From positions 1 through 64,000 of the forward strand of contig NZ_BATP01000007.1 in NCBI RefSeq assembly GCF_000739615.1: a stretch of 64,000 bases of DNA. Reading direction: 5' to 3'. The DNA comes from Haloferula sp. BvORR071. Lineage in GTDB: Bacteria; Verrucomicrobiota; Verrucomicrobiia; Verrucomicrobiales; Akkermansiaceae. Of this stretch, positions 5,911 through 50,848 are shown piece by piece (within the stretch, counting starts at the first letter, position 1; every line of letters starts with the position of its first letter). Below the pieces are notes generated by a model that worked only from the letters and a program-made list of their open reading frames with translations, searched no databases and was not told where the DNA came from. The position numbers were made by a program, and so were the translations under genes.

Positions 5911-7941
5911 ATGAAAAACCAACACTCGAGGTTGCCCCACCTCTGCGTTGGCCTGATTGCCCTGAACACCCTGCTCCCCGCGTCCCTCTCCGCCGCTGAA
6001 ACGGCGCAGACCACCAACCCGATCGGTCGGGTAGCCAGGATTTTCAACCGCAAGCTGGTCGAGGTCGAAGACCGCATCCATTGGCTGGAAGACCGCCGGG
6101 ATGCCCTCGCGGTGTTTGCGGAACGCCCCCTCAAGGAAAGCATTTGCTGGCGTTGCGGGCAGTCCGACGAGTCGGCAGGCAATCCGTGGATCTCCCTCGA
6201 TCTGGGACGCGAAGTTCCCTTGGACCAGATTTTCCTTGTTCCAGCCCAGCGCGAGGCGGGCGATTCGAACGACCTTTTCCCGCGCCGCTACATGATTGAG
6301 GCGGCTACCCAAGCGGACTTCTCCGACGCCCGGACGGTCTACAAGACCGGCCAGCTTCCCCAGCCCTCCCCCAACGGCTACCCGGTCCGGATCAATGCTG
6401 ACGGGCAGCCCGCGCGCCACGTGCGGCTCACCCTTCTGGAGGGCCACCGCCGCGGCCTGCCGAATGTCTGCGCGCTCTCCGAGATCTTTGTCTTCTCCGA
6501 CCGCAATCCGGTTTCCTTCGGGGCGACCGTGACCAGCAACCAATCGGTGGAAATCCCCAACCGATGGGCCCCGCAATACATCGTCGACGGCCGCACGCCG
6601 CTCGGAATCTGGCAGGGTGGCCTGTGGACCGCCTCGCACGGTGACTGTCTGGAAGTGCCAATCGACAACCAGCGGGTCGAGTGGATCATTGATCTGGGCG
6701 AGAGCACGACGGTGGACCGTATGGTCTTCTTCCCCTACGCGCTGCCGGAGCTCTCCGGTCCGGGTGCGGTGCCGCCGCGCCTGAATGTGGAGGTTTCGGA
6801 CACCCCGGATTTCGCCAAGCCCACGCGGATTGCCAGCAGCGGCGATCGCGATCTGCCGGTTGACCTGACCACGCCGATCGTGATGCCGACGAGCACCCGG
6901 ACGGCCGGCCGCTATCTGCGGGTGGTCTCCGAAAAGGCCTGGCAACTGGGCAACCGCCAGCTGCAAGCCTTGGGCGAGATCGAAGTCTGGTCCGGCACCC
7001 GTAACGTGGCCTTCGGTAAGGAAGTCACCGCCCGCCAGGACGGGCTGGAACATCCCTCCGAAGAACTCACCGATGGCTCCGGCGGCAGTGTGCAGATCCT
7101 GCCGATGCACGTCTGGCTTAACCAACTCGTCGAGCGCAGCCAGATCGACGGTGAACTTCAAAGCCTGAAGTCCTCGCACACGACCATGGCGTCGGAGAGC
7201 GAGTTGAACACCACCTGGGGTGCGGCGATCGGGCTTGGCCTGACTTTCCTGATCCCGGTGGCAATCGTCGAACGACGCCGTCTGGTGTCCCGCACCCAGC
7301 TCGACAAGCTGCGCAAGCGTATCGCCTCCGACCTGCACGACGACATCGGCAGCAACCTCGGCTCCATCTCGCTGATCGCCCGCTCCGCGAAGCGCGACCT
7401 CGAGCGTCTGCACGGCCCCGATGTGGTGGCCAACGACCTGGGCGAAGTGGAAACGATCGCCCGCGAAAGCTCCCTGGCGATGCGCGACATCGTGTGGCTG
7501 CTAGAACGCCGCCAGGACACGATCGGCGACTTGGTGCAGCGGATGCGCGACTGCGCTGCCCGCCTGCTGCGCGAGATCGAATACTCTCTGGTCTGCCGGT
7601 CCTCCAAGACCGCGGCCAAGCTGACGCTCGATTCCAAGCGTCACCTCTTCCTTTTCTACAAGGAAGCGCTTCACAACGTGGTGAAGCACTCGAAGGCGAC
7701 CCAAGTGACCGTGCGCCTCTTCGACGAGCGCGAACGCCTGGTCATGGAGGTCTCCGACAATGGCATCGGCCTGCCCCGCAACGAGGACGACCAGATGGCC
7801 GCCGTGAAGAAGCTCGCTGACCGCGCCCGGGTGCTGGAAGGCACCCTGCACGTGGAATCCAAGCCCGGCGCGGGCACCACCCTCCGACTCTCCGTCAAAC
7901 GAACCAGCCTGATGGCAACCAAAGCAACCGCCCATGAGTAA
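5911..7941 (+). CDS. Sensor histidine kinase with periplasmic discoidin-like domains
   Basis: A 676-aa NarX/DesK-class kinase. It has a signal peptide at residues 1-28 and a large extracytoplasmic region (about 30-430) with two segments resembling F5/8 type C (discoidin) domains: NPWISLDLGREVPLDQIFLV in the first, VEWIIDLGESTTVDRMVFFP in the second. One membrane helix lies near 436-453. The HisKA_3 dimerisation motif DLHDDIGSNLGS carries the phospho-acceptor His476. A HATPase_c domain follows, with the N box (ALHNVVKHSKA, about 586-596) and the G boxes (DNGIGL, GAGTTL). The stop overlaps the response-regulator start by 8 bases, so the two form a pair. Discoidin folds often bind carbohydrate, so a glycan ligand is plausible but not shown. 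Confidence 0.88.
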   Translation: MKNQHSRLPHLCVGLIALNTLLPASLSAAETAQTTNPIGRVARIFNRKLVEVEDRIHWLEDRRDALAVFAERPLKESICWRCGQSDESAGNPWISLDLGREVPLDQIFLVPAQREAGDSNDLFPRRYMIEAATQADFSDARTVYKTGQLPQPSPNGYPVRINADGQPARHVRLTLLEGHRRGLPNVCALSEIFVFSDRNPVSFGATVTSNQSVEIPNRWAPQYIVDGRTPLGIWQGGLWTASHGDCLEVPIDNQRVEWIIDLGESTTVDRMVFFPYALPELSGPGAVPPRLNVEVSDTPDFAKPTRIASSGDRDLPVDLTTPIVMPTSTRTAGRYLRVVSEKAWQLGNRQLQALGEIEVWSGTRNVAFGKEVTARQDGLEHPSEELTDGSGGSVQILPMHVWLNQLVERSQIDGELQSLKSSHTTMASESELNTTWGAAIGLGLTFLIPVAIVERRRLVSRTQLDKLRKRIASDLHDDIGSNLGSISLIARSAKRDLERLHGPDVVANDLGEVETIARESSLAMRDIVWLLERRQDTIGDLVQRMRDCAARLLREIEYSLVCRSSKTAAKLTLDSKRHLFLFYKEALHNVVKHSKATQVTVRLFDERERLVMEVSDNGIGLPRNEDDQMAAVKKLADRARVLEGTLHVESKPGAGTTLRLSVKRTSLMATKATAHE

Positions 7942-8590
7942 CACCGCTACTGTCCCGTTGCGGATCTGGATCTGCGAAGACCATGCGAACTTCGCCAAAC
8001 AGATCTCGCGTCTCATCGCCGGTGAAGATGACCTCGTCTGTGAGAAGGCATTCTCGCACCCGGACGACCTCTTCGCCGAACTGAACTACTGTTCCGCCCC
8101 GCCGGATCTCCTGATGCTCGACCTCGGCCTGCCCGGCAAGGACGGCCTGCAGGTGCTGCGCGAGGTCAAGGCCAAGGTCCCGGCACAGAAGATCGTCATC
8201 CTCACCTCCTTCGACGACCGCGAGCGCGTTTACCGCGCCATCTGCAACGGCGCCTCCGGATACCTGCTCAAGACCGCCGATCCGGACGACATCCTCTCCG
8301 GCATCCGCGACGTGATGCAGGGCACCGCCGCGCTGAGCAGCCCGATCGCCACAATGATCCTGGAAGGCTTCTCCAAGCACGGCCCGGTGGAAGAAACCGA
8401 GCCCCTCACCTCCCGTGAGGAAGAAGTGCTGCGCCTGCTGGTGAAGGGCTTCATCAAGAAGGAAATCGGCGACCAGCTCGACATCTCCCAGCACACCGTG
8501 GACATGCACCTGCGCAGCGTTTACCGCAAGCTGCACGTCCGCACCCAGACCGAAGCCGTCTCCAAAGCGCTCCGGAAGGGCCTGGTCTGA
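7934..8590 (+). CDS. NarL/FixJ-family response regulator
   Basis: A 218-aa transcription regulator. The receiver domain (about residues 8-125) has the acidic pair Glu15/Asp16, phospho-acceptor Asp63 in MLDLGLPGKDG, Thr91 and Lys113. A LuxR-type helix-turn-helix follows at about 153-215 (LTSREEEVLRLLVKGFIKKE, then ISQHTVDMHLRSVYRKL). It overlaps the discoidin-sensor kinase by 8 bases, so that kinase is the natural partner. No third gene belongs to the unit; the next gene lies 87 bases on. Confidence 0.92.
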   Translation: MSNTATVPLRIWICEDHANFAKQISRLIAGEDDLVCEKAFSHPDDLFAELNYCSAPPDLLMLDLGLPGKDGLQVLREVKAKVPAQKIVILTSFDDRERVYRAICNGASGYLLKTADPDDILSGIRDVMQGTAALSSPIATMILEGFSKHGPVEETEPLTSREEEVLRLLVKGFIKKEIGDQLDISQHTVDMHLRSVYRKLHVRTQTEAVSKALRKGLV

Positions 8591-8677: not shown

Positions 8678-9955
8678 ATGACGGGAAAACGCGGGCTGAC
8701 GCAGCAACATGTGGCAAGGATTCTCGGAGGCGAGAGCCCGGAGGTGGTGGCAGCGCGACTTGGCCCCAACTTCGACAATCTGCCAGCGGTTCCTGCGGGT
8801 AGCGCCAAGGTGACGGCGCAGCGTGCGGAGGCATTGTGGCAGGAAGCCGGGCTGGATTTAGAGCTACAGGCGATCCTGTTGAATGAAGCCGCAGTCCAGG
8901 AGCTACCAGTCTACCAGGGCAATATTGAGAATGCCATCGGCCTGCTGAAGCTGCCGCTGGGCCTGGCGGGGCCCTTGCGGATCAATGGCACTACGGCGCG
9001 GGGTGACTATCCCATTCCCCTGGCGACCACCGAGGCGGCGCTGGTGGCTAGCTACCATCGCGGATGCCGGCTGCTGACGGAGGCAGGCGGTTGCACCGCG
9101 CTGGTGCTCTTCGAAAGCCTGAGCCGCGCGCCCGCTTTCGTTCTCCGCACGGCGGCAGAGGCCTGCCGTTTCACGATCTGGGCGATGGAGAACTTCGAGG
9201 TTTTCCAAGAGATCGCGAATGCCACGACCTCCCACGGCAAGATGGTGGATGTGGGGGTCACACTGGAGGGCAACCACGTGTATCTGAACTTCGAGTTCAC
9301 CACCGGCGATGCCTCGGGCCAGAACATGGTGACCATCGCCTCGCAGGCGGTCTGCGACTACATTGTCGAACACACGCCGGTGCCATTACAGCGGCACTAT
9401 GTGGAATCGAATCTCTCGGGCGACAAGAAGGCCAGCACCAAGGCCTATACCAGTACCCGCGGCAAGAAGGTGACGGCGGAGGCGCTGATCCCGGCGGAAC
9501 TGGTGAAGAAGCACCTGCACACCACGCCACGGGCGATGGAGCAGTACTGGCAGATGTCGGCGATCGGCGGGGTGCTCAGCGGCACACTCGGCATCCATGG
9601 CCACTTTGCAAACGGACTAACAGCCCTCTACCTCGCCACCGGCCAGGATGCAGCCTGCGTGGCGGAATCCGCAACGGGTGTGACGCGCTTCGAGGTTACG
9701 GAGGAAGGCGATCTTTACTCCACGGTGACCTTGCCGGGAATCATGGTCGGCACGGTCGGCGGGGGGACGCGATTACCCACGCAGAAGGCCTGCCTGGAGC
9801 TGATGGGGCTCGCCGGGGCTGGCAAGGCGCGGGCACTGGCGGAAGTGTGCGCGGGGCTGCTGTTAGCCGGAGAGCTTTCGATCATCGGGGCGCTGAGTGC
9901 GGGGCACTTCGCGCGGGCGCACCGCAAGCTGGCGCGGGGGAAGAAGAATGAATGA
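8678..9955 (+). CDS. Hydroxymethylglutaryl-CoA reductase, class I type
   Basis: It reduces HMG-CoA to mevalonate with NADPH. The 425-aa soluble protein has no membrane domain. HMGR signatures are present in order: ENAIGLLKLPLGLAGPL (84-100), the catalytic Glu119 in ATTEAALVAS, the NADP-binding TGDASGQNM (209-217), catalytic Lys250 in SGDKKAS, Asp324 in TGQDAACV, VGTVGGGTRLPTQ (357-369), and His410 in SAGHFARAH. The spacing fits the class I (archaeal/eukaryotic-like) form. No other mevalonate-pathway gene is in the window. The glycosidase gene starts inside its 3' end (8-base overlap). It heads the eight-gene lipid-like cluster. Confidence 0.93.
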   Translation: MTGKRGLTQQHVARILGGESPEVVAARLGPNFDNLPAVPAGSAKVTAQRAEALWQEAGLDLELQAILLNEAAVQELPVYQGNIENAIGLLKLPLGLAGPLRINGTTARGDYPIPLATTEAALVASYHRGCRLLTEAGGCTALVLFESLSRAPAFVLRTAAEACRFTIWAMENFEVFQEIANATTSHGKMVDVGVTLEGNHVYLNFEFTTGDASGQNMVTIASQAVCDYIVEHTPVPLQRHYVESNLSGDKKASTKAYTSTRGKKVTAEALIPAELVKKHLHTTPRAMEQYWQMSAIGGVLSGTLGIHGHFANGLTALYLATGQDAACVAESATGVTRFEVTEEGDLYSTVTLPGIMVGTVGGGTRLPTQKACLELMGLAGAGKARALAEVCAGLLLAGELSIIGALSAGHFARAHRKLARGKKNE

Positions 9956-11168
9956 TCCCTGTGGTATGGCCCGACTTCTCCCGGTTCTCGCCTGTGCGGC
10001 GATTCTAACAAACGCCTCTGCGTCTGTAGAGGTCGCCACGATCAGCAGCTTCGGCCAAGCGGTGAAATGGCTGGAGGTGGCGGCTCCAGTGCTCGTCCGT
10101 GCCAGCACACGGGAGATGAGTAGTGGGGCGACGGCTTTCCCGCCTCAGGCAGGCCCCGGCTATGAGGCATTCTGGCTGCGCGACTACTCCTATGTGCTGG
10201 AAGGCTGTAGTAACTCGCTCTCCGACACCGAAGTGCGCCGGGCCTGCACGCTCTTCCTCGATGCGCTCGATCCCAAGGGCGCTGGTGTGGATTGCATTAA
10301 ATTCGATGGCACCAGGATCTATCAGCCCGGCTACGGCAGCATGGGCAAGAACCCGGTGGCGGATGGCTCCCTCTTCACTATCGAGGTAGCATGGCAGACG
10401 CATCAGCGGCTGCGGGACAAGGACTACCTTGCCGGCATCATCGGGAAGCTCCTGCTCGCGCACCAGGGCGTGCCACGAAACCCTAGCACCGGCTTGGTCC
10501 ACATCACCAGCGAGGGCTGGGATCGTTGTCCTTATGGCTTCACGGATTCCGTACGCAAGCAGGGCGACGAGCTGTTTTGCTCGCTGCTATTGATCGAGGC
10601 GGATCGGCATCTTGCGACGATGCTTCGCGAACTTGGGCGGAGCGATGAAGCTGCAAAGTTCGAGGACGAGGCAAGCGCCCTAACAAAGACGGTGCAGGCT
10701 ATCTTCTGGGACGGCGAAGCGGGATTGTTCCTCGCAGCTACCGGCCAAGGCCGCCAGCCGGACCTGTGGGGCTCGGCCTTTGCGGTGTATGCCGGCATTG
10801 CCTCACCAGAGCAGGCCATCGCCATCGCCCGTTATTTCCAGCAACATCATGCGGAAATCGTGCAGAAGGGGCAGATGCGACACCTGCCGAAAGGCATGTA
10901 TTGGGATGCCGCCTGCGAGCGCGACACCTATCAGAACGGCGGCTACTGGGCCACGCCCACGGGTTGGCTGATCTACACGCTCGATCTCGTCGATCCCAAG
11001 CTCGCCGAGCAAACGCTAGTGGACCTGGTCCGCGACTTCCAGGAGCGCGGGGTGAACGAATGGATCTTCGGAGAGGGCGTCCACACCCGGAACTACCTCT
11101 CCAGCGCCACCCTGCCATTGGCGGGGGCGAAGAAGATGCTGGAGCGCCGGGCCAAGGCCAACAAGTGA
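9948..11168 (+). CDS. Secreted six-hairpin glycosidase-like protein
   Basis: A 406-aa protein with an N-terminal signal-like segment (MARLLPVLACAAILTNASAS after a second ATG at 9966; the first ATG is 9948). The rest has the repeated helical-hairpin look of (alpha/alpha)6 glycosidases such as GH15/GH63 or amylo-1,6-glucosidases. Examples are the segment YEAFWLRDYSYVLEGC with its Arg-Asp pair, DGSLFTIEVAW, and NEWIFGEGVHTRNYL with a possible catalytic Glu. It overlaps the HMGR stop by 8 bases, so it is translated with it. The substrate cannot be read from sequence, and its place in a lipid-type cluster is unexplained. Confidence 0.65.
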   Translation: MNDPCGMARLLPVLACAAILTNASASVEVATISSFGQAVKWLEVAAPVLVRASTREMSSGATAFPPQAGPGYEAFWLRDYSYVLEGCSNSLSDTEVRRACTLFLDALDPKGAGVDCIKFDGTRIYQPGYGSMGKNPVADGSLFTIEVAWQTHQRLRDKDYLAGIIGKLLLAHQGVPRNPSTGLVHITSEGWDRCPYGFTDSVRKQGDELFCSLLLIEADRHLATMLRELGRSDEAAKFEDEASALTKTVQAIFWDGEAGLFLAATGQGRQPDLWGSAFAVYAGIASPEQAIAIARYFQQHHAEIVQKGQMRHLPKGMYWDAACERDTYQNGGYWATPTGWLIYTLDLVDPKLAEQTLVDLVRDFQERGVNEWIFGEGVHTRNYLSSATLPLAGAKKMLERRAKANK

Positions 11169-11252
11169 GCGACTGCACCTTTCGGCCCACCCGGAAAGCA
11201 GCCCCTGCCTTGCCAGCGGACAAATCCACCCGCTAGACTGCGGACAAGGTCA

Positions 11253-12182
11253 ATGGGGACGCCAAACGAAACTCCACCTCCAAGTTTCTCGGGGAAATGG
11301 TGGACCTATCAGAAGGAGCGTTTCCCGCTCCTAGCGCACGGGCCGCTGATCGCGGCATTCAGTGCCTGCGCGGTCTCCTACTCCTCCCTGCTGCGCCAAG
11401 CGCCGGTGCCGGGATGGGAGATGTATTTCACTGCCTTCGTGGTCTGTCTGCTGATGTTTTTGCAGCTTCGGATTGCGGATGAATTCAAGGACTTCGAGGA
11501 TGACTCCCGCTGGCGCCCCTACCGTGCGGTGCCGCGGGGTCTGGTTAAGTTGTCTGAGTTGCGTGTGGTGTTCATTCTCGCCGCGGCGATCCAACTCGGG
11601 CTGGTGCTGTGGCTGGACCTGCGGCTGCTGTGGGTGCTGGGGATTGCCTGGACCTATCTGGCGCTGATGAGCGTGGAGTTCTTCTGCCGGGAATGGCTGA
11701 AGGCACGGCCGGTGGTCTATCTGGTGAGCCACATGGGCATCATGCCGCTGGTGGATTTCTTCGGCACCGCCTGCGAGTGGCTGCCGCGCGCAGGCAAGGC
11801 GCCGGCGGGGCTGGGCTGGTTCCTCGCGGCGAGCTTCTGCAACGGGATCGTGATTGAGCTGGGCCGCAAGCTGCGCCAGCCTGCCGATGAGGAGGAGGGC
11901 GTGGAGACTTACAGCGCGCTATGGGGTGTGCAAGGCGGGGCGACCGTGTGGGTGTTCATGTTGTTCTGGACCTGGTACTGCGCGCTCAAGGCATCCCAGG
12001 CGATCGGTTTTGCATTCCCGGTTTCTTGCGGGCTCGGCGCGGTCTTGTTAGTCGCTATGGCAGCGGTCTTTGGCTACGCTCATCGCGGGATGTCCGGGAA
12101 GAAGATCGAAGCGGTCTCCGCCGTATGGACGCTAGCCCTCTACCTGCTCCTCGGCTTGGTGCCGCTAGTCCTGAGACGCTGA
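11253..12182 (+). CDS. UbiA-family prenyltransferase-like membrane protein
   Basis: A 309-aa integral membrane protein with about eight or nine hydrophobic segments. The first UbiA Asp-rich motif appears in a variant form at residues 73-84 (RIADEFKDFEDD), followed by PYRAVPRG (89-96), as in UbiA enzymes that transfer a prenyl chain from a prenyl diphosphate to an acceptor. A second conserved polar block lies near VIELGRKLRQPADEEEG (about 206-222). It lies 84 bases after the glycosidase and 7 bases before the dikinase-like gene. Acceptor and chain length are unknown. Confidence 0.7.
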   Translation: MGTPNETPPPSFSGKWWTYQKERFPLLAHGPLIAAFSACAVSYSSLLRQAPVPGWEMYFTAFVVCLLMFLQLRIADEFKDFEDDSRWRPYRAVPRGLVKLSELRVVFILAAAIQLGLVLWLDLRLLWVLGIAWTYLALMSVEFFCREWLKARPVVYLVSHMGIMPLVDFFGTACEWLPRAGKAPAGLGWFLAASFCNGIVIELGRKLRQPADEEEGVETYSALWGVQGGATVWVFMLFWTWYCALKASQAIGFAFPVSCGLGAVLLVAMAAVFGYAHRGMSGKKIEAVSAVWTLALYLLLGLVPLVLRR

Positions 12183-12189
12183 ACCGATC

Positions 12190-14622
12190 ATGAGCTTTCT
12201 CTTCCCCGGAACCCCCAGTTCACGCCTCGGCGGCAAGGGCGCAGCCCTCGCCAAACTGGGCGAGGCGGGCTTCGACGTGCCGGCGTGGTTCGCGGTGCCT
12301 CCAGAGGCGCAGTGGAGCGAGGGTGAACTGGCGGCTTGCCTAACAGACCTTGGCGCGGGTCCCTTCGCGGTGCGCTCCTCCGCCACGATGGAGGATGGTG
12401 CAGGGCATTCCTTCGCGGGGCAGTTCGAGACCTTCCTGGAAGTTCCCGCGGCTGAAGTTGCGGAGCGGATCGCGGCCGTGCGGGACTCGGCACGGCGGGA
12501 GGCGGTGCTCACCTATTGCCGCGAGCGCGGGCTGCCGCTGCCGGAGCCGCCGACCGTGCTGGTGCAGCGGATGATCCTGCCGCGTTATGCGGGCGTAGCT
12601 TTCTCGGCGGATCCGGTCAGCGGCAGGCGCTCGCTCGCGGTGGTGTCCGCGGTTGCGGGAACCGGTGAGAAGTTGGTATCGGGCGAGGTGGATGGTGAGA
12701 CTTGGCGCATCAGTAGCGAGTCCAGCGAGATGCCGGAAAATGCTCTGCTAAAGGAAGCTGAGGCCCGAGAGCTTGCTAAACTTGCCCGCGATTGCGCGGC
12801 TTACTTTGGACGGCCACAGGATATCGAGTGGGCGATCGACGAAGCAGGCAAGCTCTGGCTGCTGCAATCGCGGCCGATCACGACCTTGGCCGGCGTGCCG
12901 GACCCCGACGATACATTGCGGGTCTGGGACAACAGCAACATCGCGGAGAGCTACGGCGGTGTGACCACTCCCCTCACCTTCTCCTTCGCCCGGCGGATCT
13001 ACGAGTCAGTCTACCGCGAGTTTTGCCGCCTGATGTCGGTGCCGGCGGAGCGGATCACGCGCGCGGACGATGTCTTTCCGCAGATGCTGGGGCTGATCCG
13101 GGGGAGGACCTACTACAACCTTGCGAGTTGGTACCGGGTGCTGGCGCTGCTGCCCGGCTTCCAGCTCAACCGCTCCTTCATGGAGCAGATGATGGGCGTG
13201 AAGGAACCGCTGCCCGAGCCGCTGGTGCAGAAGATCATCGCAGAATCGAGCGTCAGCCGCGGCGCGGACATGCGGGCCTTGGTCGGCACCTGCATTGGAT
13301 TGATCCGGCAGTTGCGGGGACTGAAGAAGCAGGTGGCGGAGTTCCAGGCGCGGCTGGATACCGCGCTCGCACCGCCCCCGGTGCCGCTGGAATCCATGAG
13401 CGGGGAGGACCTGGTAATTCACTACCGCGACCTCGAGCGCCAGCTGCTCAAGCGCTGGGACGCGCCGCTGGTGAATGACTTCTTCGCGATGATCTACTAC
13501 GGCCTGCTCCGTGGCCTGTGCGGCAAATGGGCCGGCGATCAGGATGGCACGCTGCAGAATGAGTTACTCGCTCACACTGGCGGGATCATCAGTGCGGAGC
13601 CACCGCGCCGGATCATCCGCATGGCCAAGCTGGCCGCGGAGCTTCCCGGCCTGCCCGAGCTGCTGGTGAATCCGGATACACCAGCGCAGGAGAAGCTCGC
13701 CGCGGTCAAACGCCACGGCTCGCTGAGCGCGGAGTTCCAGCGATATCTGGATGACTTCGGCGACCGCTGCCTGGAGGAACTGAAGCTCGAAAGCCCAACC
13801 GTCCGCGACGACGCCTCGACCCTGCTATCTTCCATCGGCGCGCTGGCGATGCGCGGGAACCTGCCGGAGGAGGTCGCGACATCGCAGGCTGAGGCGCCTT
13901 CGCTGGGCAATCCCCTGAAGCAGATCGTCTTCGGCCATGTGCTCAAGCATGCGCGGGAGAAGGTCCGCTGCCGCGAGAACCTGCGCTTTGAGCGCACGCG
14001 GCTGTTCGGGCGGGTGCGGGCGATCTTGCGCGAGCTGGGCAAACGCTTGCATGCCGACGACCGCCTGGCGGCTCCCGAGGATATCTTCTATCTGGAACTC
14101 GACGAAGTGCTCGCGGCATGGGAGGCGACCGGCACCATCGTGGACTTCGCCGCACTGGCCCAACAGCGCCGCATCGAGTTCGATAGCTTCCGGAACGAAG
14201 CGGCACCGCCGGATCGCTTCGAGACCCACGGCCCGGTGCATCGCTATTCGGCATTCGAAGCCAGCCGCAAGGAGGAACCAGTGGTCGCGGGCGAGCACAT
14301 CAAGGGCATCGGTGCCTGCCCCGGCAAGGTGAAGGGCCGCGTGCGCGTCGTGCTCGATCCCCGCGGCGCACGCTTGGAGCCCGGCGAGATCCTCGTGGCT
14401 CAGCAGACCGACCCTGGCTGGGTCGTGCTGTTCCCGGCGGCCTCAGGTCTACTGGTGGAACGCGGCAGCCTCCTATCCCACTCCGCCATCGTCTCCCGCG
14501 AACTTCGCCTCCCCTGCATCGTCTCCCTCTCTCGCATCACCACCATCCTCAAGACCGGTGACCTCGTCGAAATGGACGGCAGCACCGGCGAAGTGCGAAT
14601 CCTAACAGAGGAGGAAGCATGA
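12190..14622 (+). CDS. PEP synthase / pyruvate phosphate dikinase-like phosphotransferase without a PEP-binding barrel
   Basis: This 810-aa enzyme begins with a PPDK ATP-grasp domain: LGGKGAALAKL (13-23), VRSSATMEDG (61-70) with GHSFAGQFET, and DIEWAIDEAGKLWLLQSRPI near 216-235. It ends with a swivelling phosphohistidine domain whose catalytic His764 lies in GSLLSHSAIVSREL. Between them is a long helical region (about 240-690). True PEP synthases continue into a C-terminal TIM barrel that binds pyruvate/PEP; here the protein stops about 46 residues after the His. That ATP / substrate / His order is the one known for rifampin phosphotransferase, so it probably phosphorylates a small molecule or lipid precursor bound by the middle domain. 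Confidence 0.8.
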   Translation: MSFLFPGTPSSRLGGKGAALAKLGEAGFDVPAWFAVPPEAQWSEGELAACLTDLGAGPFAVRSSATMEDGAGHSFAGQFETFLEVPAAEVAERIAAVRDSARREAVLTYCRERGLPLPEPPTVLVQRMILPRYAGVAFSADPVSGRRSLAVVSAVAGTGEKLVSGEVDGETWRISSESSEMPENALLKEAEARELAKLARDCAAYFGRPQDIEWAIDEAGKLWLLQSRPITTLAGVPDPDDTLRVWDNSNIAESYGGVTTPLTFSFARRIYESVYREFCRLMSVPAERITRADDVFPQMLGLIRGRTYYNLASWYRVLALLPGFQLNRSFMEQMMGVKEPLPEPLVQKIIAESSVSRGADMRALVGTCIGLIRQLRGLKKQVAEFQARLDTALAPPPVPLESMSGEDLVIHYRDLERQLLKRWDAPLVNDFFAMIYYGLLRGLCGKWAGDQDGTLQNELLAHTGGIISAEPPRRIIRMAKLAAELPGLPELLVNPDTPAQEKLAAVKRHGSLSAEFQRYLDDFGDRCLEELKLESPTVRDDASTLLSSIGALAMRGNLPEEVATSQAEAPSLGNPLKQIVFGHVLKHAREKVRCRENLRFERTRLFGRVRAILRELGKRLHADDRLAAPEDIFYLELDEVLAAWEATGTIVDFAALAQQRRIEFDSFRNEAAPPDRFETHGPVHRYSAFEASRKEEPVVAGEHIKGIGACPGKVKGRVRVVLDPRGARLEPGEILVAQQTDPGWVVLFPAASGLLVERGSLLSHSAIVSRELRLPCIVSLSRITTILKTGDLVEMDGSTGEVRILTEEEA

Positions 14623-15001
14623 CGACCACCTGCCGTGCTCCCTTCAAAGTCGACCTAGGGAATGCCCGCTCAAAAGCCCCAAAGGGGCGGCCGGGAGATA
14701 GCCGAGGGCAAGCGATAGCGCAGCCCTGGGTTTTGCCCGAAGCTATATTGCCCCCTGAATTGGGGGCCGGGAGTGTGGTGACTCCAGACCGTTTTCCCAT
14801 CGGCGACCTCGCTGCTCCCCTACAGGGAGCCAATCTTGTTAGGCACCGTGCCCAGGGTTGCGCGCGCTATCGCTTGCTTACCCGGGGCTATCTCCCTGCC
14901 GCCCCGTTGGGGCTCTTGAACAAGCGGCCTCTGTCCTCGATGCCATCTCGTGGAGGCTCATCGGAAAAGGACGGCTTATCCCACCGCACCTCACATCGCC
15001 C
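14623..15001. repeat. Intergenic hairpin array with an inverted REP-like pair
   Basis: This 379-base gap holds no convincing gene. It contains two inverted, imperfect copies of a roughly 56-64-base element: 14675-14730 on the plus strand and 14851-14914 on the minus strand. The copies share AGCCCCAA/CGGGGCGGC, GGGAGATAGCC and AAGCGATAGCG. Small hairpins lie inside and between them, including CCCCCTGAATTGGGGG, GGAGTGTGGTGACTCC and GCTCCCCTACAGGGAGC. The arrangement is like a pair of REP sequences. It splits the lipid-type cluster into two runs of genes, and the hairpins may attenuate or terminate transcription. No U-run typical of a terminator follows. Confidence 0.6.
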
Positions 15002-16108
15002 ATGAGCAAATCCGAGATCCAGCACCGCGCCGACTTCTCGAAGGTCCGCTATGCCCAATGCTGGGAGGACTCGCTCCTGCTGGTCCAAGCCCTTCAGCCC
15101 GCGGGCCGGCACTGCCTGAGCATCGGCTCGGCTGGTGACAATAGCTTCTCCTTGCTTGCGGCTGGCGCGGCCTCGGTTACGGCGGTGGAAATGAACCCTG
15201 CCCAAGTCGCCTGCATCGAATTGCGCAAGGCGGCGTACTTGAGGCTCGACCATGCTACCTTCCTGGAGCTCCACGGCTCGCGTCCCTCAAGCCGCCGCCC
15301 GACCCTCTACGCCGAGTGCCGGGCCATCATGCCCGAAGAAGCCCGCACCTTCTGGGATGCAAATCCGGAAGACGTCGCCAGCGGCATCGGTGGCTGCGGG
15401 AAGTTCGAGAACTACTTCCGCCTTTTCCGCAGCCGGGTGCTGCCACTGGCACATCCGCGGAAGCGCGTGCTCTCCTTGTTAGAGCCCCGGTCCCACGACG
15501 AGCGCCGCCGTTTCTACGACAAGGTCTGGAACAACCGCCGCTGGCGCGCGATCTTCCAAGTCTTCTTCTCCCGCGCGTTGATGGGTGCCTTGGGCCGGGA
15601 TCCGGAGTTCTTCAAGTACGTCGAGGGCTCCGTGGCCGAGCGAATCCTCAGCCGCACCGAGCACGCCTTGGCGGCGCTGGATCCTTCCGCGAATCCTTAT
15701 CTCCACTGGATCCTCACCGGCACCCACGGCGAGACGCTGCCCCACGCCCTGGAAGAGGCGAACTTCGAGCCGATCCGCAAGGGTCTGCAGGAAGGCCGCT
15801 TCCGTGTGATTGGTTCTCCCATCGAGGCCTTGTTAGAAGCCGAGCCGGACAAACGCTTCGACGCCTATAACCTGAGCGACATCTTCGAATACATGAGCGA
15901 GGAAAACACCGAGGCCCTGCTGCGTCGCCTAGTCGCGGCCTCGAATCCCGGTGCCCGGCTCGCATATTGGAACATGCTCGCACCGCGCTCGCGCCCGGAA
16001 TCCATGGCGAAGCTGCTGCAACCGCGAGCCAGCGAGGCCGCCAGCTTGTTTCATGAGGATCGGGCCTTCTTCTACAGCCGATTCGTCGTGGAGGAGGTAC
16101 TGAGGTGA
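15002..16108 (+). CDS. DUF3419 / BtaA-like S-adenosylmethionine 3-amino-3-carboxypropyltransferase
   Basis: A 368-aa protein of the BtaA type. BtaA transfers the aminocarboxypropyl group of S-adenosylmethionine to diacylglycerol, the first step of betaine-lipid synthesis. Family features are YAQCWED at 17-23, the SAM-binding loop SIGSAGDNSFSLLAAG (40-55), AVEMNPAQ (61-68), and the late NLSDIFEYMSEENTEALLRR block. The ATG at 15002 was chosen because the motifs begin directly after it; the open frame further upstream runs through the repeat region. Its stop overlaps the next gene's start as GTGA. No BtaB methyltransferase is present, so the product may not be a classical betaine lipid. Confidence 0.75.
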   Translation: MSKSEIQHRADFSKVRYAQCWEDSLLLVQALQPAGRHCLSIGSAGDNSFSLLAAGAASVTAVEMNPAQVACIELRKAAYLRLDHATFLELHGSRPSSRRPTLYAECRAIMPEEARTFWDANPEDVASGIGGCGKFENYFRLFRSRVLPLAHPRKRVLSLLEPRSHDERRRFYDKVWNNRRWRAIFQVFFSRALMGALGRDPEFFKYVEGSVAERILSRTEHALAALDPSANPYLHWILTGTHGETLPHALEEANFEPIRKGLQEGRFRVIGSPIEALLEAEPDKRFDAYNLSDIFEYMSEENTEALLRRLVAASNPGARLAYWNMLAPRSRPESMAKLLQPRASEAASLFHEDRAFFYSRFVVEEVLR

Positions 16109-17433
16109 GCGGGCATGAATGGCTGGCTGTCCTTGGTGTGCTGGCCGCCTTACTGGCAGGCCTGCCCCTGATCCGCAAATTGTGCAGTGCCGGCGGCAGC
16201 TCCTCTGAAGTGGCGCGCAAGTCGGTACACGTCGCGATGGGTTTGGCCTGCGCGGCCTTCCCTTGGATCTTCGACAGGCCGCTGCCGGTGTGGGTCCTGG
16301 CTGGTCTCGCCACCCTGCCACTGCTGCTCTTGCGCTGTGTGCCGGCCCTGCGCAAGGGCGTCGGCTCTGCCCTGCATGGGGTGGAGCGCTTCTCCTATGG
16401 CGAGATCCTATTCGCTCCCGCGGTCGCCGCGGTCTTCGCTCTCTCGAAGGGCGATCCCCTGCTCCATGCCATTCCGGTCGGCATTCTAACCGTGGCGGAT
16501 GCCGCGGGCGCGATTGCCGGAACGCGCTGGGGTCATCGCTTCTACGTCTGTGGCACGGGCCGCAAGAGTGCGGAAGGTTCCGCCGCCTTCCTGGTGGTAG
16601 CTTTCCTTTGCACCTTCCTGCCGCTCTTCTACAGCGGCCGCGTGGATGCCATCCACGCGATGGCCATCGCGCTCACGCTGGCCATCGTCTCCATGATGGC
16701 CGAGGGCATCTCGGACCGCGGCTTCGACAACCTCGTGATCCCGGTGGGCTGCCATCTCCTGCTCGCGCGCTTCCTGGCGAGCAGCATGCTGCAGATGGAG
16801 ATTCGCTTCGGGGCTGCGGTGCTTCTGTTAGGCTTGGTGGCGTGGAGTTCCCGCTGGAGCACGCTCAGTGGCAGTGCCTTGATCGGCGGCGCTCTGCTCG
16901 GCTATGGCTGTGCGATTCTGGGCGACCCACGCTTTCTCCTGCCGCTGCTGGCCATCTTCATCTGCCACCTCGTCACCACCGGGCGTCATCGCCTCGGCGG
17001 GACCTTCGACCATCGGCTGGATGCCGTGATCTCGCATGCCATCGGCTCGCTGCCGTGGTGTCTCGCGGTGGATCGCGGCTTCCTCGATTCGCGGGTAGCC
17101 CTGACCGGGCTGTCCTTCGCGATGGCGATTCATCTCACGATGACCACACTCGCCACCCGCCGCTACCTCCACCCCGGCAGAGCCGCGCTGTTGTATTCCG
17201 TGGTGAAGGGCTGGGGTGTCGCTGGTCTCGCCGGGCTGCTCTGGCTGTGGAAGGACAACCAAGCGCTGGCGTGGCCAGCCACCATCGCGCTGGTCCTGAC
17301 ACCCGCCGTGGCCTTACTCTCGGATGCCTTGGAATCCCGTCTCTCCGCTTCCGTGGTGTGGACCCTGCGCGGAACCTTGGCCCTGCTCTGCTCCACTCCC
17401 GCCCTGCTCATGCTGAAGCAACTCGCGCCATGA
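16105..17433 (+). CDS. Fused prenol kinase-like (VTE5/dolichol kinase) and DUF92 membrane protein
   Basis: A 442-aa polytopic membrane protein with two halves. Residues 30-220 look like the CTP-dependent dolichol/phytol kinase family: RKSVH at 39-43, ADAAGAIAGTRWG at 131-143, and RKSAEGS at 153-159. Residues about 235-430 resemble DUF92 (the plant VTE6 phytyl-phosphate kinase family), with the Gly-rich stretch GSALIGGALLGYG. Together these activities would turn a free prenol into its diphosphate, the substrate of a UbiA prenyltransferase such as the one upstream. The start is GTG at 16105, overlapping the preceding stop (GTGA). Its stop overlaps the GNAT gene (ATGA). The DUF92 assignment is the less certain half. 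Confidence 0.65.
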   Translation: MSGHEWLAVLGVLAALLAGLPLIRKLCSAGGSSSEVARKSVHVAMGLACAAFPWIFDRPLPVWVLAGLATLPLLLLRCVPALRKGVGSALHGVERFSYGEILFAPAVAAVFALSKGDPLLHAIPVGILTVADAAGAIAGTRWGHRFYVCGTGRKSAEGSAAFLVVAFLCTFLPLFYSGRVDAIHAMAIALTLAIVSMMAEGISDRGFDNLVIPVGCHLLLARFLASSMLQMEIRFGAAVLLLGLVAWSSRWSTLSGSALIGGALLGYGCAILGDPRFLLPLLAIFICHLVTTGRHRLGGTFDHRLDAVISHAIGSLPWCLAVDRGFLDSRVALTGLSFAMAIHLTMTTLATRRYLHPGRAALLYSVVKGWGVAGLAGLLWLWKDNQALAWPATIALVLTPAVALLSDALESRLSASVVWTLRGTLALLCSTPALLMLKQLAP

Positions 17434-18419
17434 ACCCTCCCCTCATCCACATCCTGGAAGGCCCCGCTACGGACTGGAGCTCCCTGCCTGCGGCCCAAGC
17501 GATCTCCGAACAAGTCGCCGGCCCGGAGGAGAAGCCCGACGCGCGCCTGATTGCAGTCGATCCAGAAGGACGGATCGCCACCGCCGCCCTGTGGTGGAGC
17601 GACGTGCCTGCTTACGGAGACCACAAGGTTGGCACCATCGGCGGCTTCGAATCCTTCAGCGCCGAAGCGAGTGCGCAACTCCTGGAAGCCGCGGAGGAGC
17701 GCTTGCGGGAAGCGGGCTGCACCATCGCCATCGGCCCGATGAACGCCAACACCTGGCGCCGGCACCGCTTCGTGATCGAGAGCAGCGGGCGCGGGCCGTT
17801 CCTGTTAGAGCCGCGGAACAACCCCGCTTTTCCCGAATGGTGGCGCGCCGCGGGCTATCAAGAGCTGTCCCGCTACTCCTCCTCCCTCATGCCGCTGGAT
17901 GGCAGTTCGGTGGTCTCGCCGACCCTCAAGGAGCGACTGGAACGATCCGGCATCGCCATCCGTCCGCTGCATGGGGATCGCTATGATGACGAGCTGCGGG
18001 CGATCTACGCAATCAGCCTGCGCAGCTTCGCAAACAACTTCCTTTACACGCCGCTGGAGGAGGAAGGCTTTCTCGGTGCCTACCGCAAGGTGCAGTCACG
18101 CGTCGATCCCGACTTCGTGAGGATCGCGGAAAAGGACGGCGTTCCCTGCGGCTTCGTCTTCGCGATCGCGGATTTGGAAGCCGCCGCCCGCGGCGAGAAG
18201 CCGGCCCTGATCGTGAAGACCCTGGCGGTTGATCCGGAGTCGCGCTGCGCCGGGCTCGGCAGCCTGCTGGTCGATGAAGTTCACCGCCTGGGCCGCGAGA
18301 AGGGCTTCACCGAGGCGATCCACGCCCTGCAGCACGAGAACAACACCTCGCTTAAAATCACGGGCCGCCACCACGGCGACCCCATCCGCCGCTACGCCCT
18401 GTTCTCAAAACTACTATGA
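17430..18419 (+). CDS. GNAT-family N-acyltransferase-like protein
   Basis: A 329-aa protein. The C-terminal half has a GNAT acyl-CoA-binding segment, VDPESRCAGLGSLLVDEVHR near 267-286, after a beta-strand (LIVKTLAV). The N-terminal half is less clear and may be a second, degenerate GNAT fold. The Trp/Arg-rich stretch FPEWWRAAGYQELSRYSSS resembles large GNAT proteins found in lipid and natural-product clusters. Both ends overlap neighbours by ATGA, so it is tightly coupled to the prenol-kinase and ligase genes. The acceptor is unknown. Confidence 0.7.
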   Translation: MNPPLIHILEGPATDWSSLPAAQAISEQVAGPEEKPDARLIAVDPEGRIATAALWWSDVPAYGDHKVGTIGGFESFSAEASAQLLEAAEERLREAGCTIAIGPMNANTWRRHRFVIESSGRGPFLLEPRNNPAFPEWWRAAGYQELSRYSSSLMPLDGSSVVSPTLKERLERSGIAIRPLHGDRYDDELRAIYAISLRSFANNFLYTPLEEEGFLGAYRKVQSRVDPDFVRIAEKDGVPCGFVFAIADLEAAARGEKPALIVKTLAVDPESRCAGLGSLLVDEVHRLGREKGFTEAIHALQHENNTSLKITGRHHGDPIRRYALFSKLL

Positions 18420-19969
18420 ACCTCGTGGCACTCCTCCGCGAGCGGGCGGCACTCCATCCCGGGCGTCCCGCCTTGATCGATCGCCACAAGGGCTGCGACC
18501 GCAGCGTGGGCTTCGCGGAACTGCTCCAGCGGGTCGAGCGGGGTGCCGGCAGGCTAAAGGAATTGGGCCTCAAGCGCGGTAGCACGATCCTGGTCTTCCA
18601 ACCGGTTTCAATTGAACTCTACGAGATCCTTCTGGCGGCCTTCCACGGTGGTTTGCGGGTGATGCTCGCGGATCCATCGGCCGGACGTGCCTTTCTCTCG
18701 CTCTGCTGCCAGCGCCTGCCGCCCGATGCTTTCTTCGGTCCATGGAAAGCCCACCTGCTCAAGCTCGCCGTGCCAGGACTGCGGCGGATCCCGCGTGCCA
18801 TTTGCTCAACTGGATGGTTTCCCGCGGCCTCCGCATGGTCACCGGGCCACCCAGCGAGCATGGAAGAGGTTCCCGACGAAGAGCCCGCGCTGATTACTTT
18901 CACCAGCGGCAGCACCGGCGTGCCGAAGGCCGCGGTCCGCAGCCACGGCTTCCTGATGGCCCAGCACCGGGCTTTGGAGAAGGCACTCGATTTCTCGGAA
19001 GCTGAGGTCGACCTGATCACCCTGCCGGTCTTCGTGCTCGCCAACCTCGCTTCTGGTCTGACCAGCGTGTTGGCCGATACCGACCTGCGCTCGCCAGGCA
19101 AGGCAGATGCCGCGGCTATCCGCGCGCAATGCGAGCGCCATGGCGTGACCCGCTGCGCCGCCTCCCCTGCCTTCTTCGAGGCGCTGCTTGCCGGTCCCGA
19201 TTCGTTGCCACAAGTAAGCAAAGTCTACACGGGCGGCGCACCGGTTTTTCCCGATCTGCTAGAACGACTCCAAGCGGCGCTGCCGGATGCGGAAGTCACC
19301 GCGGTCTTCGGCTCCACGGAAGCGGAGCCGATGAGCCACCTCGGCGCGCACGAATACAGTGCGGATCTCGTCGCGCAGACGGCCGCGGGCTTCGGTCTCT
19401 GCGCGGGGGTGCCAGTGCCGGAGGTTGAGCTGCGGATCATCCGCGATCACTGGGGCCAGTCCTTGGCCAAGCTCACGCCGGAAGAACTCGACAATATCAC
19501 CGTGGCGCCCGGGGAGCCGGGTGAGGTCATCGTGACCGGTGATCACGTGCTCAGCGGCTATCTCGGCGGCGTGGGTGACAAGGAAACCAAGATCCACGTG
19601 GCGGGCAAGGTCTGGCACCGGACCGGCGATGCGGCGTGGCTGGATGAATCCGGCCGCTTGTGGCTGTTAGGTCGCTGTGCGGCGAAGCTTCCGGCCAGTT
19701 CACTCGCTCGCGCCGGACTTCCCGAAGGCGCGCTCGACTATCCCTTCGCGATCGAATCGGCATTGCGGGCCCGGCATCCCGGCACTCGTACCGCGGCCCT
19801 CGGCTTGAAGGGTCGGCGGGTGCTCGTCACGACGGTTGCGGACATGGAGGCCGAGGCCGCGGAGTTTGGGATCGACGAGGTCATCCGGGTGGAGGCCATC
19901 CCCCTGGACCGGCGGCACAATGCCAAGATCGACTATCCCGCCTTACTGAAACTGCTCGGGGAAGCCTGA
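18416..19969 (+). CDS. OleC-like AMP-dependent synthetase/ligase
   Basis: A 517-aa ANL-superfamily enzyme. The phosphate-binding A3 motif TFTSGSTGVPKAA begins near residue 161. A5-like VFGSTEAEPMS, the A7 block HRTGDAAWLDESGRLWLLGR and a catalytic Lys504 in RRHNAKID complete the set. The RHNAKI ending is like that of OleC, the beta-lactone synthetase of olefin biosynthesis, more than of ordinary acyl-CoA ligases. This is recalled, not searched. The activated acid is unknown. It is the last gene of the overlapping run (15002-19969) and starts within the GNAT stop codon. Confidence 0.78.
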   Translation: MNLVALLRERAALHPGRPALIDRHKGCDRSVGFAELLQRVERGAGRLKELGLKRGSTILVFQPVSIELYEILLAAFHGGLRVMLADPSAGRAFLSLCCQRLPPDAFFGPWKAHLLKLAVPGLRRIPRAICSTGWFPAASAWSPGHPASMEEVPDEEPALITFTSGSTGVPKAAVRSHGFLMAQHRALEKALDFSEAEVDLITLPVFVLANLASGLTSVLADTDLRSPGKADAAAIRAQCERHGVTRCAASPAFFEALLAGPDSLPQVSKVYTGGAPVFPDLLERLQAALPDAEVTAVFGSTEAEPMSHLGAHEYSADLVAQTAAGFGLCAGVPVPEVELRIIRDHWGQSLAKLTPEELDNITVAPGEPGEVIVTGDHVLSGYLGGVGDKETKIHVAGKVWHRTGDAAWLDESGRLWLLGRCAAKLPASSLARAGLPEGALDYPFAIESALRARHPGTRTAALGLKGRRVLVTTVADMEAEAAEFGIDEVIRVEAIPLDRRHNAKIDYPALLKLLGEA

Positions 19970-45440: not shown

Positions 45441-45492
45441 AACCAAGGTTCGAGACCCACCGCGTCCCCTTTTCCTTCATCCCTCACTCCCG

Positions 45493-48276: not shown

Positions 48277-48323
48277 AGCCCGAGGCTCAAGGCATCCGCC
48301 TTCCACCTTTTCCTCAAGCCGCG

Positions 48324-49198
48324 ATGAAAACCCTCGCTCCCCTCTTCGCCGCTCTGCCAGGCCTTGCCTTCGCCGCTGACCTTGGGACCGTTCCCAAAGA
48401 CCTCGCGCCTGCCGGGTTGGCCGATATCCGTACCACTTATGACGCCGCCCGGCATGCTCCGCAGCGTCAGGAAGACGGCGACTTCGTGGCCCGCAATCCC
48501 GGCCAACAATGGTCGGCTGAATTCGATGGCAGGGCTTCACGGTCATTCCCGATCACGGAGCCTGGACTTGGGGCTTGGATCTAAAAGGATATGGAGAGAC
48601 CTTACGCTGTCCGCAGCTTCCTCCTCACAGCTCCGCCACGAGGGCGGGAAAATCACCTGCCAGCGCGATGAGAACCTGACCGAGTGGTTCATCAACGACA
48701 GCCGGGGCCTGGAACAGGGCTGGGATATCCGGCAACGCCCGGAGCGGGCCGACCCGGCCGCTCCGCTGCTGCTCCGGCTGGCAACCCGCGGCAGTGTCCA
48801 CCCGCAGGTCTCCACCGGCGGGGACAGCATTTCCTTCCAAGACCAGGGCGGTGCCAGCGCGGTGACCTACGGCGGGCTCAAGGCATGGGATTCGAATGGC
48901 ACGATGCTCCCCGTCGGTTTCGAGCAGGCCGGGGAGAATGGCATCCGCATTGCCGTGGATGACCGGAGCGCCCGCTATCCTCCACGCCATCCGCCAGTCA
49001 GCCCCCGAGATCGACGTGGATCCAAGGAGCGGCCGGATCAAGCTGACGCCCCGCTGGGAAAAGGCCGCAGACATGATCAGCTTTTCCGTGTTCCCCGTTC
49101 CGGCAGGCTCCGACGTTTCGATCACGCCTTCCGGAGGCATCGAATTCGAATTCCCGTCTCCGGACAGCACGGCCTTCCTCAAGATCGAGCAGGACTAG
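48324..49198 (+). pseudogene. Broken third FG-GAP paralogue lacking the propeller
   Basis: It begins with an intact signal peptide (MKTLAPLFAALPGLAFA) and the shared N-terminal domain. A one-base deletion near 48531 (GATGGCAGGGC against GATGGCAAGGGC in paralogue 2) shifts the frame, and a second shift occurs near 48595. The N-terminal domain then continues in another frame to about 48980. There DDRSARYP is joined directly to sequence matching the C-terminal tail (NGRVKL / SGRIKL; ITPSGGIEFEF), in a third frame, to 49198. All seven blades and the beta-sandwich are gone. Three lesions make function very unlikely. Confidence 0.88.
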
Positions 49199-49204
49199 GC
49201 CTGG

Positions 49205-50437: not shown

Positions 50438-50494
50438 GCACGAGACAGAAGGCGGGAAGGCCCCGGACGCAAGAGCGGACTCAAACCGGCCGCG

Positions 50495-50848
50495 TCAGCC
50501 TTTCCACTCGATTTCCTTCGCGTCGGCCCAGAGGTCTTCCAGACCGTAGTAGTCGCGCAGTTCCTCGTGCATCACGTGCACCATCACGTCGATGTAGTCG
50601 AGCACCACCCACTTGGTGTCGGCGTTACCCTCGGCATTCGCCGGGCGGGCACCGTACTGCTCCTCCACGTTGCCGCGGATATCACGCAAGATCGCGCGCA
50701 GGTGGGGCATGGACGAGCCGGAGCAGACGATCATGAAATCGGTCAGATTCGAGAGCCCGCGGAGGTCCCAGACACGGATCTTCTCCGCTTGGATTTCGTC
50801 CGCTGCCTTTGCGCAAGCCTTTGCCAATTCCAGTCCTTGGATCGCCAT
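50495..50848 (-). CDS. rsfS: Ribosomal silencing factor RsfS (Iojap family)
   Basis: RsfS binds uL14 on the large ribosomal subunit and blocks subunit joining under starvation. The start is set at ATG 50848 (MAIQGLELAK), giving 117 aa, the family size, with GGGAAA just upstream. A TTG at 50914 would add a basic 22-residue tail. Family features are KIRVWDLRGLSNLTDFMIVC, SGSSMPHLRAI and WVVLDYIDVMVHVM with DYYGLEDLW at the end. Confidence 0.93.
   Translation of the reverse strand: MAIQGLELAKACAKAADEIQAEKIRVWDLRGLSNLTDFMIVCSGSSMPHLRAILRDIRGNVEEQYGARPANAEGNADTKWVVLDYIDVMVHVMHEELRDYYGLEDLWADAKEIEWKG

Follow-up and report, generated by a model that had tools for sequence, protein, structure and literature searches.

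Seven genes that are conserved and probably horizontally mobile across many bacterial phyla may direct the synthesis of an unusual membrane lipid

Seven genes of Haloferula sp. BvORR071, encoding an HMG-CoA reductase (HMGR)-like enzyme, a UbiA-family prenyltransferase, a PPDK/RPH-like phosphotransferase, a BtaA-like transferase, a prenol-kinase-like protein, a GNAT acyltransferase, and an acyl ligase, almost certainly constitute one dedicated, conserved pathway. The most likely role for them, which we propose tentatively as an explanation of the pathway as a whole, would be the synthesis of an unusual membrane lipid. The genes lie at positions 8678 to 19969 of a 64,000-nucleotide stretch of contig NZ_BATP01000007.1 (the window; Table 1). 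The original prediction of eight same-strand genes with short overlaps was confirmed: all eight ORFs are present on the + strand, with overlaps of 8 or 4 bases at four of the seven junctions and gaps of 84, 7, and 379 bases at the other three. The 379-base gap contains a dispersed repeat; in relatives, the PPDK and BtaA genes overlap by a few bases at this position. Pfam and NCBIfam profiles identified HMG-CoA_red, UbiA, PPDK_N plus PEP-utilizers, DUF3419, GNAT, and AMP-binding in the window proteins, and the families that had been predicted (UbiA, RPH-like phosphotransferase, BtaA-like protein, prenol kinase, GNAT, and OleC-related ligase) were correct. The secreted glycosidase, also predicted as a pathway member, was ruled out, since none of the relatives examined has such a gene in its cluster.

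Table 1. Features of the gene cluster in the window
Feature	Position	Strand	Remarks
HMGR-like acyl-CoA reductase, class I fold	8678..9955	+	catalytic residues retained; human S684 and K735 of the HMG-carboxylate pocket are changed to E243 and M293
MGH1-like/trehalase-like glycoside hydrolase, N-terminal signal-like stretch	9948..11168	+	this cluster only
Divergent UbiA-family membrane prenyltransferase	11253..12182	+	motifs DEFKDxxxD and ExGRKxRxPxxEExGVxTY
PPDK-like protein: PPDK_N, middle domain, and phospho-His (H764) domain, without PEP barrel	12190..14622	+	
Dispersed inverted-repeat element between PPDK-like and BtaA-like genes	14650..14960	.	about 49 matches in the genome
BtaA-like DUF3419 protein, predicted S-adenosylmethionine:3-amino-3-carboxypropyl transferase	15002..16108	+	
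Polyprenol/phytol-kinase-like membrane protein	16105..17433	+	RKxxH, ADAxxAxxG, KSxEGS, and DN motifs; C-terminal membrane half poorly conserved
Tandem GNAT N-acyltransferase	17430..18419	+	
Acyl-AMP/acyl-CoA ligase, PRK09274 (OleC-related) group	18416..19969	+	adenylation motifs intact

Conservation of the neighborhood had been set beforehand as a refutation test; when the test was run, the neighborhood proved to be conserved across many phyla. A scan with the BtaA-like protein as the query returned at least 523 relatives, and gene content and order were read in the best 80 loci, which carry 16 phylum labels. All seven genes were found together in 53 of these 80 loci, with the order HMGR-UbiA-PPDK-BtaA-PK-GNAT-OleC in 42 and GNAT-OleC-HMGR-UbiA-PPDK-BtaA-PK in 11; other orders occur in distant relatives (e.g., HMGR-BtaA-PK-GNAT-OleC-UbiA-PPDK). 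Three pairs adjoin in every case among the best 80 loci: BtaA with the kinase (80/80), UbiA with PPDK (73/73), and GNAT with the ligase (66/66). Synteny comparison of the loci of 18 relatives revealed the seven genes in order in most of them, with differing flanks, and in one genome the HMGR-UbiA-PPDK and BtaA-PK-GNAT-OleC blocks lie 440 kb apart, with both retained. Cultured isolates that carry the cluster include Haloferula luteola YC6886, Luteolibacter pohnpeiensis KCTC 22041, Natronospirillum operosum G-116, and Desulfobulbus rhabdoformis DSM 8777. In the BtaA tree, which was built partly on metagenome bins, some of them possibly mislabeled, the phylum labels are intermixed. The pathway is probably horizontally mobile; its genes travel as a unit and stay together through reshuffling. 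This recurrence of seven genes across many phyla is far beyond chance, and the conserved set bears out the prediction that the genes are a real functional unit. No fusions among the seven genes, which were sought as a hint to the order of steps, were found.

The HMGR-like enzyme has the class I fold, approximately 34 to 40% identity to class I HMGRs of the phylum that lie outside the cluster, and the catalytic Glu, Lys, Asp, and His residues (E84, K250, D324, and H415, equivalent to human Glu559, Lys691, Asp767, and His866), which are conserved in 63 to 64 of 64 orthologues. The invariant His is H415, the equivalent of human H866, and H410 is variable. The equivalents of R590, D690, and K692 are likewise kept. 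Unlike class I HMGRs, however, the cluster enzyme has lost the Lys and Ser of the HMG-carboxylate pocket. Human K735 forms a salt bridge to this carboxylate (PMC9500038); the equivalent position is Lys in none of the 64 orthologues (Met, Val, or Thr instead), and the S684 equivalent is Glu in all 64. The 21 HMGRs from outside the cluster that were examined in the phylum all have both Ser684 and Lys735. The cluster enzyme also scores below the TIGR00533 cut-off. To judge from these residues, it is very likely not an HMG-CoA reductase and would be unlikely to make mevalonate; a basic residue beside the lost Lys (Arg one position before it in 47 of 64 orthologues) makes an acidic substrate still conceivable.

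The original prediction treated HMG-CoA as the entry step to isoprenoids: HMGR would feed the mevalonate supply, and the prenol kinase and DUF92 would salvage prenols to prenyl diphosphate for UbiA. The intact catalytic residues of the HMGR-like enzyme are consistent with such a supply, and leucine breakdown could in principle provide HMG-CoA without HMG-CoA synthase. Nevertheless, neither HMG-CoA synthase nor mevalonate-diphosphate decarboxylase scored over its cut-off in any of the 20 genomes tested, and the MEP gene IspG was present in all 20. The mevalonate route was rejected because of the missing synthase and decarboxylase, the presence of MEP, and the altered pocket residues. HMG-CoA entry is also countered by nine cluster genomes without an HMGR of the cluster type; where the gene is missing, no replacement gene adjoins. 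In a phylum sample, the cluster-type HMGR was found in 9 of 13 cluster genomes versus 0 of 182 others. None of the 16 cluster genomes tested for other HMGRs, which rely on MEP and have no HMG-CoA synthase, contains a second one.

The salvage half of the same proposal turns on the kinase-like protein, a multi-helix membrane protein in which the residues of the RKxxH, aspartate/KS.EGS, and DN motifs are invariant in 64 orthologues. We take the RKxxH, KS.EGS, and DN pattern to be that of VTE5/dolichol-kinase-type prenol kinases. All 19 invariant residues are in the N-terminal, prenol-kinase-like half and none in the DUF92-like half. CTP_transf_1 matches 2 of the 64 orthologues; a fold search gave CDP-DAG synthase as the sole relevant match, a weak one, and sequence searches gave no solved-structure relatives. 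The window protein has no Pfam match to DUF92 at E ≤ 0.1. DUF92 matches weakly in 10 of the 64 orthologues (best E = 0.0056, below the domain cut-off), and in the two orthologues whose match location was seen, it is in the C-terminal half. Thus, of the predicted prenol kinase-DUF92 fusion, the prenol-kinase half stands and a catalytic DUF92 is not supported, given the weak matches and the lack of invariant residues. Prenol-kinase motifs and UbiA in one pathway recall the salvage of prenols for tocopherol by a VTE5-type kinase, VTE6/DUF92, and UbiA, but the C-terminal half of the cluster kinase is only weakly DUF92-like, genes for an aromatic headgroup are missing from the cluster, and an S-adenosylmethionine (SAM) aminocarboxypropyl transferase is present. 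Altogether, we regard the combined mevalonate and salvage scheme as very improbable.

The GNAT protein has a tandem GNAT fold resembling that of mycothiol synthase. The best profile of the ligase is PRK09274, and it matches the OleC profiles NF045786 and NF045785 at 195 and 178 bits, far below their cut-offs of 900 and 850. No OleA, OleB, or OleD is encoded among the window cluster genes, no such family recurs in the 80 loci, and, unlike OleC beta-lactone synthetase, the cluster ligase always adjoins a GNAT gene. An OleC-type function was not upheld, given these low scores. The ligase and the HMGR-like enzyme might act in sequence to build a lipid with a 1,3-diol or amino-alcohol backbone: the substrate activated by the ligase would be either a 3-hydroxy acid or the BtaA product, at its carboxylate, and the HMGR-like enzyme would reduce the CoA ester to an alcohol for phosphorylation, giving a ceramide-like lipid by another route. 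A pocket that keeps the R590, D690, and K692 equivalents, has lost the carboxylate Lys, and has fixed an acidic residue would fit a hydroxyacyl-CoA or an ammonium-bearing acyl-CoA, and the set contains both an N-acyltransferase and an acyl ligase. We consider this backbone unlikely, as HMGR adjoins the ligase in only 12 of the 57 loci holding both and several clusters keep the ligase without HMGR.

The UbiA domain (PF01040) of the window protein scored 39.9 bits, above its cut-off; motif 1 (DxxxDxxxD) is kept, and motif 2 has Glu for Asp. The PPDK-like protein contains PPDK_N and the phospho-His mobile domain, and its closest solved relatives are rifampin phosphotransferases (5fbs and 5hv1). 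It resembles rifampin phosphotransferase, PigC, and RedH in having ATP-grasp, middle, and phospho-His domains without a PEP barrel, and it also scores against prodigiosin and undecylprodigiosin ligases and rifamycin phosphotransferase. Unlike these proteins, it is below every curated cut-off (235 bits versus 999 for NF041857, rifampin phosphotransferase) and always adjoins UbiA. The BtaA-like, UbiA, and PPDK-like proteins are all distant from characterized members, and their acceptors could differ.

Such similarities raise the alternative that the product is not a membrane lipid but a specialized, prenylated metabolite, antibiotic- or siderophore-like and probably secreted; the ligase and GNAT would then attach an acyl group, the RPH/PigC-like protein would ligate or phosphorylate, and UbiA would prenylate. 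The patchy, mobile distribution of the cluster is in keeping with this, as are the P450 and sulfotransferase genes that flank it in four genomes. As clues to the product, the recurring groups of flanking ORFs were mostly rejected as antisense artifacts; the only real cases are the P450 and sulfotransferase genes, at few loci, plus single ones such as an MMPL-family exporter gene, which lies inside one cluster. However, the flanks examined show no recurring gene for regulation, transport, or self-resistance, near-identical gene content across very different bacteria is unusual for such a product, and the set includes two integral membrane enzymes and a lipid-type transferase. A secreted metabolite thus appears rather unlikely. 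The product might also be a small non-membrane molecule.

The preferred reading, a membrane lipid, centers on the BtaA-like protein, which matches DUF3419 (PF11899) with E = 1.6e-64 and has no solved-structure relatives by sequence. As in BtaA/BtaB synthesis of the betaine lipid DGTS, an aminocarboxypropyl transferase of the DUF3419 family and an amino-acid-headed lipid are predicted; unlike that system, no trimethylating methyltransferase (BtaB) gene recurs at the cluster loci examined, and the set has in its place an N-acyltransferase, UbiA, two kinases, and an acyl ligase. In the proposed pathway, the HMGR-like enzyme would use NADPH to reduce an acyl-CoA other than HMG-CoA, yielding a primary alcohol; other enzymes could take over this supply step. 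Lipid alcohols would be phosphorylated by the CTP-type prenol kinase and by the RPH-like enzyme, which would convert ATP to AMP and Pi, and UbiA would attach to an acceptor the prenyl chain of a prenyl diphosphate made through MEP. The BtaA-like enzyme would transfer the 3-amino-3-carboxypropyl group of SAM to a lipid hydroxyl, the ligase would activate a fatty acid, and the tandem GNAT would N-acylate the new amino group in place of BtaB trimethylation. The need for two kinases in one lipid is not explained by this proposal.

Hints of a lipid are the predicted membrane and lipid enzymes and the exporter gene noted above, and the product is probably a lipid. It is doubtful whether the product is precisely a homoserine-type aminolipid that is N-acylated and bears a prenyl or alkyl chain. 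An amino-acid-headed lipid, as first predicted, continues to be the best guess, and the HMG-CoA entry to isoprenoids is not retained. The prediction that no described pathway has this gene set agreed with the open-access papers searched, in which no description was found; subscription papers and preprints were outside this coverage. It is conceivable, at somewhat short of an even chance, that a mobile, seven-enzyme pathway of many phyla makes a new class of lipid, in which the HMGR fold has been retooled, through a charge-altered acyl pocket, for another acyl-CoA and a BtaA-type group is N-acylated rather than methylated.

If so, many bacteria would share an overlooked component, probably a membrane lipid, that recurs across hundreds of genomes. 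In these bacteria, a mevalonate pathway should not be deduced from genes annotated as HMG-CoA reductase. The operon is self-contained and, at approximately 11 kb, small enough to be expressed whole for direct identification of its product.

Pfam and NCBIfam place the ORFs of the operon in the HMG-CoA reductase (HMGR), MGH1-like glycoside hydrolase, UbiA, PPDK_N plus PEP-utilizers, DUF3419 (BtaA-like), GNAT, and AMP-binding families; the membrane protein in the interval between BtaA and GNAT (kinase-like) received no family from either database. The HMGR and glycosidase genes overlap by 8 bases, the BtaA/kinase, kinase/GNAT, and GNAT/ligase junctions overlap by 4 bases each, and the other three junctions are gaps of 84, 7, and 379 bases. 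Thus, the same-strand arrangement with overlaps at most junctions was borne out. The 379-base gap between PPDK and BtaA holds a dispersed element that is matched about 49 times in the source genome (7.8 Mb, 66 contigs). Since these two genes overlap by a few bases at this point in the nearest relative, the repeat has inserted into an operon that is otherwise tightly packed. The glycosidase, counted as a cluster member in the original prediction, was absent from every relative's locus fetched and does not belong to the set; it is an insertion confined to this genome's operon. The regulatory pair directly upstream of the operon is kept in the two nearest relatives (L020 and L021) and not in others.

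Features of the window and of related loci (L-numbers, local coordinates)
Feature	Position	Strand	Remark
Histidine kinase with F5/8 type C (discoidin-like) domain, LuxR-type response regulator	5911-8590		
Eight-gene operon	8678-19969	+	ORFs with Pfam and NCBIfam families
Glycoside hydrolase, MGH1/trehalase-like	9948-11168		
Dispersed inverted-repeat element, REPIN/MITE-like	14650-14960		Arms at 14670-14713 and 14876-14919
Two FG-GAP-repeat proteins, one 2297-aa ORF	42885-57967	+	
MMPL-family exporter	L065:7854-10001		Inside cluster, PPDK and BtaA on either side
P450 and sulfotransferase	L039:14931-17410		
P450 and sulfotransferase	L025:13998-16447		
P450 and sulfotransferase	L072:2441-4857		
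P450 and sulfotransferase	L081:2427-4996		
P450 and sulfotransferase	L024:13576-16055		
1118-aa protein with ligase-like region, lipase-like protein, B12-binding/radical-SAM-like protein	L150:2616-8432		Upstream of reshuffled cluster

Neighborhood conservation, on which the original prediction had staked itself, was found: the seven-gene set recurs in relatives and in many phyla. Of the 97 genomes searched, 19 carry the kinase-like protein, counting that of the window; a same-genus genome (G016) carries the cluster, and the order HMGR-UbiA-PPDK-BtaA-kinase-GNAT-ligase recurs in the fetched relatives' loci with differing flanks. Scanning GTDB genomes with the BtaA-like alignment yielded at least 523 confirmed relatives. 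The window's gene order is present in 42 of the best 80 loci, 11 have GNAT-ligase shifted to the front, and the remainder are partial, many ending at contig ends; no fusion among the seven genes was found. Phylum labels include Verrucomicrobiota, Pseudomonadota, Acidobacteriota, Planctomycetota, Gemmatimonadota, Rhodothermota, Bacteroidota, Chloroflexota, Cyanobacteriota, Thermodesulfobacteriota, Lentisphaerota, Deinococcota, Actinomycetota, and candidate phyla. These labels interleave in the BtaA tree (24 changes for 16 groups, against the least possible 15), which has starred clades of mixed phyla. Horizontal transfer is the simpler overall account, although wrongly labelled bins could lie behind some of the mixing.

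Among more distant relatives within the phylum, the genes stand in other orders, such as HMGR-BtaA-kinase-GNAT-ligase-UbiA-PPDK and ligase-UbiA-PPDK-HMGR-BtaA-kinase, and G025 retains both blocks (BtaA-kinase-GNAT-ligase and HMGR-UbiA-PPDK) about 440 kb apart. With all loci counted, no core gene ever intervenes in BtaA-kinase (80/80), UbiA-PPDK (73/73), or GNAT-ligase (66/66). Retention of the seven genes together through such reshuffling is strong evidence for a single pathway. No description of this set was found among 5.39 million open-access papers, in which DUF3419 appears just four times by paper; provisionally, within that literature, the set is undescribed.

The HMGR had been read as an isoprenoid entry step, a role that the following results do not support. 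It is the sole HMGR in 16 cluster genomes, and four cluster-free congeners have none. HMG-CoA synthase was found in 0 of 20 genomes, mevalonate-diphosphate decarboxylase did not exceed the cut-off in the genomes searched, and the MEP enzyme IspG was found in 20 of 20. The cluster HMGR falls short of the TIGR00533 cut-off (344 bits, with 442 required). Alignment with solved class I enzymes, with 64 orthologues scored, showed that all four catalytic residues (Glu, Lys, Asp, and His) are retained. The equivalent of human S684 is Glu in all 64. Human K735, which forms a salt bridge to the carboxylate of HMG (PMC9500038), is replaced throughout by M, V, T, A, L, I, or F. Another type of class I HMGR (L129-L149), widespread elsewhere in the phylum, served as an internal control: all 21 examined members retain the canonical Ser and Lys. 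Judged by score, both kinds occur together in 5 genomes. An acidic substrate keeps some possibility, because Arg immediately precedes the lost Lys in 47 of 64 (Gln in the window protein). Most likely, judging from these residues and the gene inventory, the cluster HMGR is not a mevalonate enzyme.

In the phylum sample, 9 of the 13 cluster genomes carry cluster-type HMGR, against none of the 182 others (Fisher p = 8e-13, only a guide because the genomes are related). The cluster-type alignment had no match in five genomes holding the rest of the cluster, and no HMGR of any kind was found in four Verrucomicrobiota-phylum genomes (93-99% complete) with strong BtaA-like hits. Because some clusters lack HMGR, its step would be replaceable, supplying something that other enzymes can supply (e.g., an alcohol) or modifying the product.

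The UbiA protein is divergent (first motif DEFKDxxxD; Glu replacing Asp in the second), with digeranylgeranylglyceryl phosphate synthase as its nearest solved relative (E = 0.011). The PPDK-like protein has intact ATP-grasp and phospho-His motifs and is nearest to rifampin phosphotransferases among solved proteins, but it scores under the cut-off of every named family. The BtaA-like protein matches PF11899 at 1.6e-64, and a sequence search found no solved relative. All 19 invariant residues of the kinase-like protein lie in its N-terminal half and match the phytol/dolichol-kinase pattern. Its structure model is confident (pLDDT 95), and the only relevant fold match, to CDP-DAG synthase, is weak. 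Of the predicted prenol kinase-DUF92 fusion, the kinase half is supported; the C-terminal half is at best a degenerate DUF92 relative. The GNAT model (pLDDT 93) has a tandem GNAT fold like MAB_4324, glucosamine N-acetyltransferase, and mycothiol synthase. The ligase has intact adenylation motifs; its best profile is PRK09274 and OleC profiles score far under cut-off, so OleC-type function is not supported.

The three pairs that are never separated suggest coupled steps: ligase with GNAT (an acid would be activated, then an amine acylated), BtaA with kinase, and UbiA with PPDK. A chain alcohol would be a component, the UbiA-type step would transfer a prenyl group, the BtaA-like step would take an aminocarboxypropyl group from SAM, and GNAT would N-acylate its amine. 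With steps assigned from protein families, a lipid would be the simplest chemistry giving every enzyme a place. The genes upstream of the reshuffled L150 cluster are possible extra pathway steps. Four genomes, drawn from two phyla, have the P450 and sulfotransferase pair beside the cluster, which suggests that the product could be hydroxylated and sulfated. Together with the MMPL exporter, this pair agrees with, though does not prove, an exported or decorated lipid.
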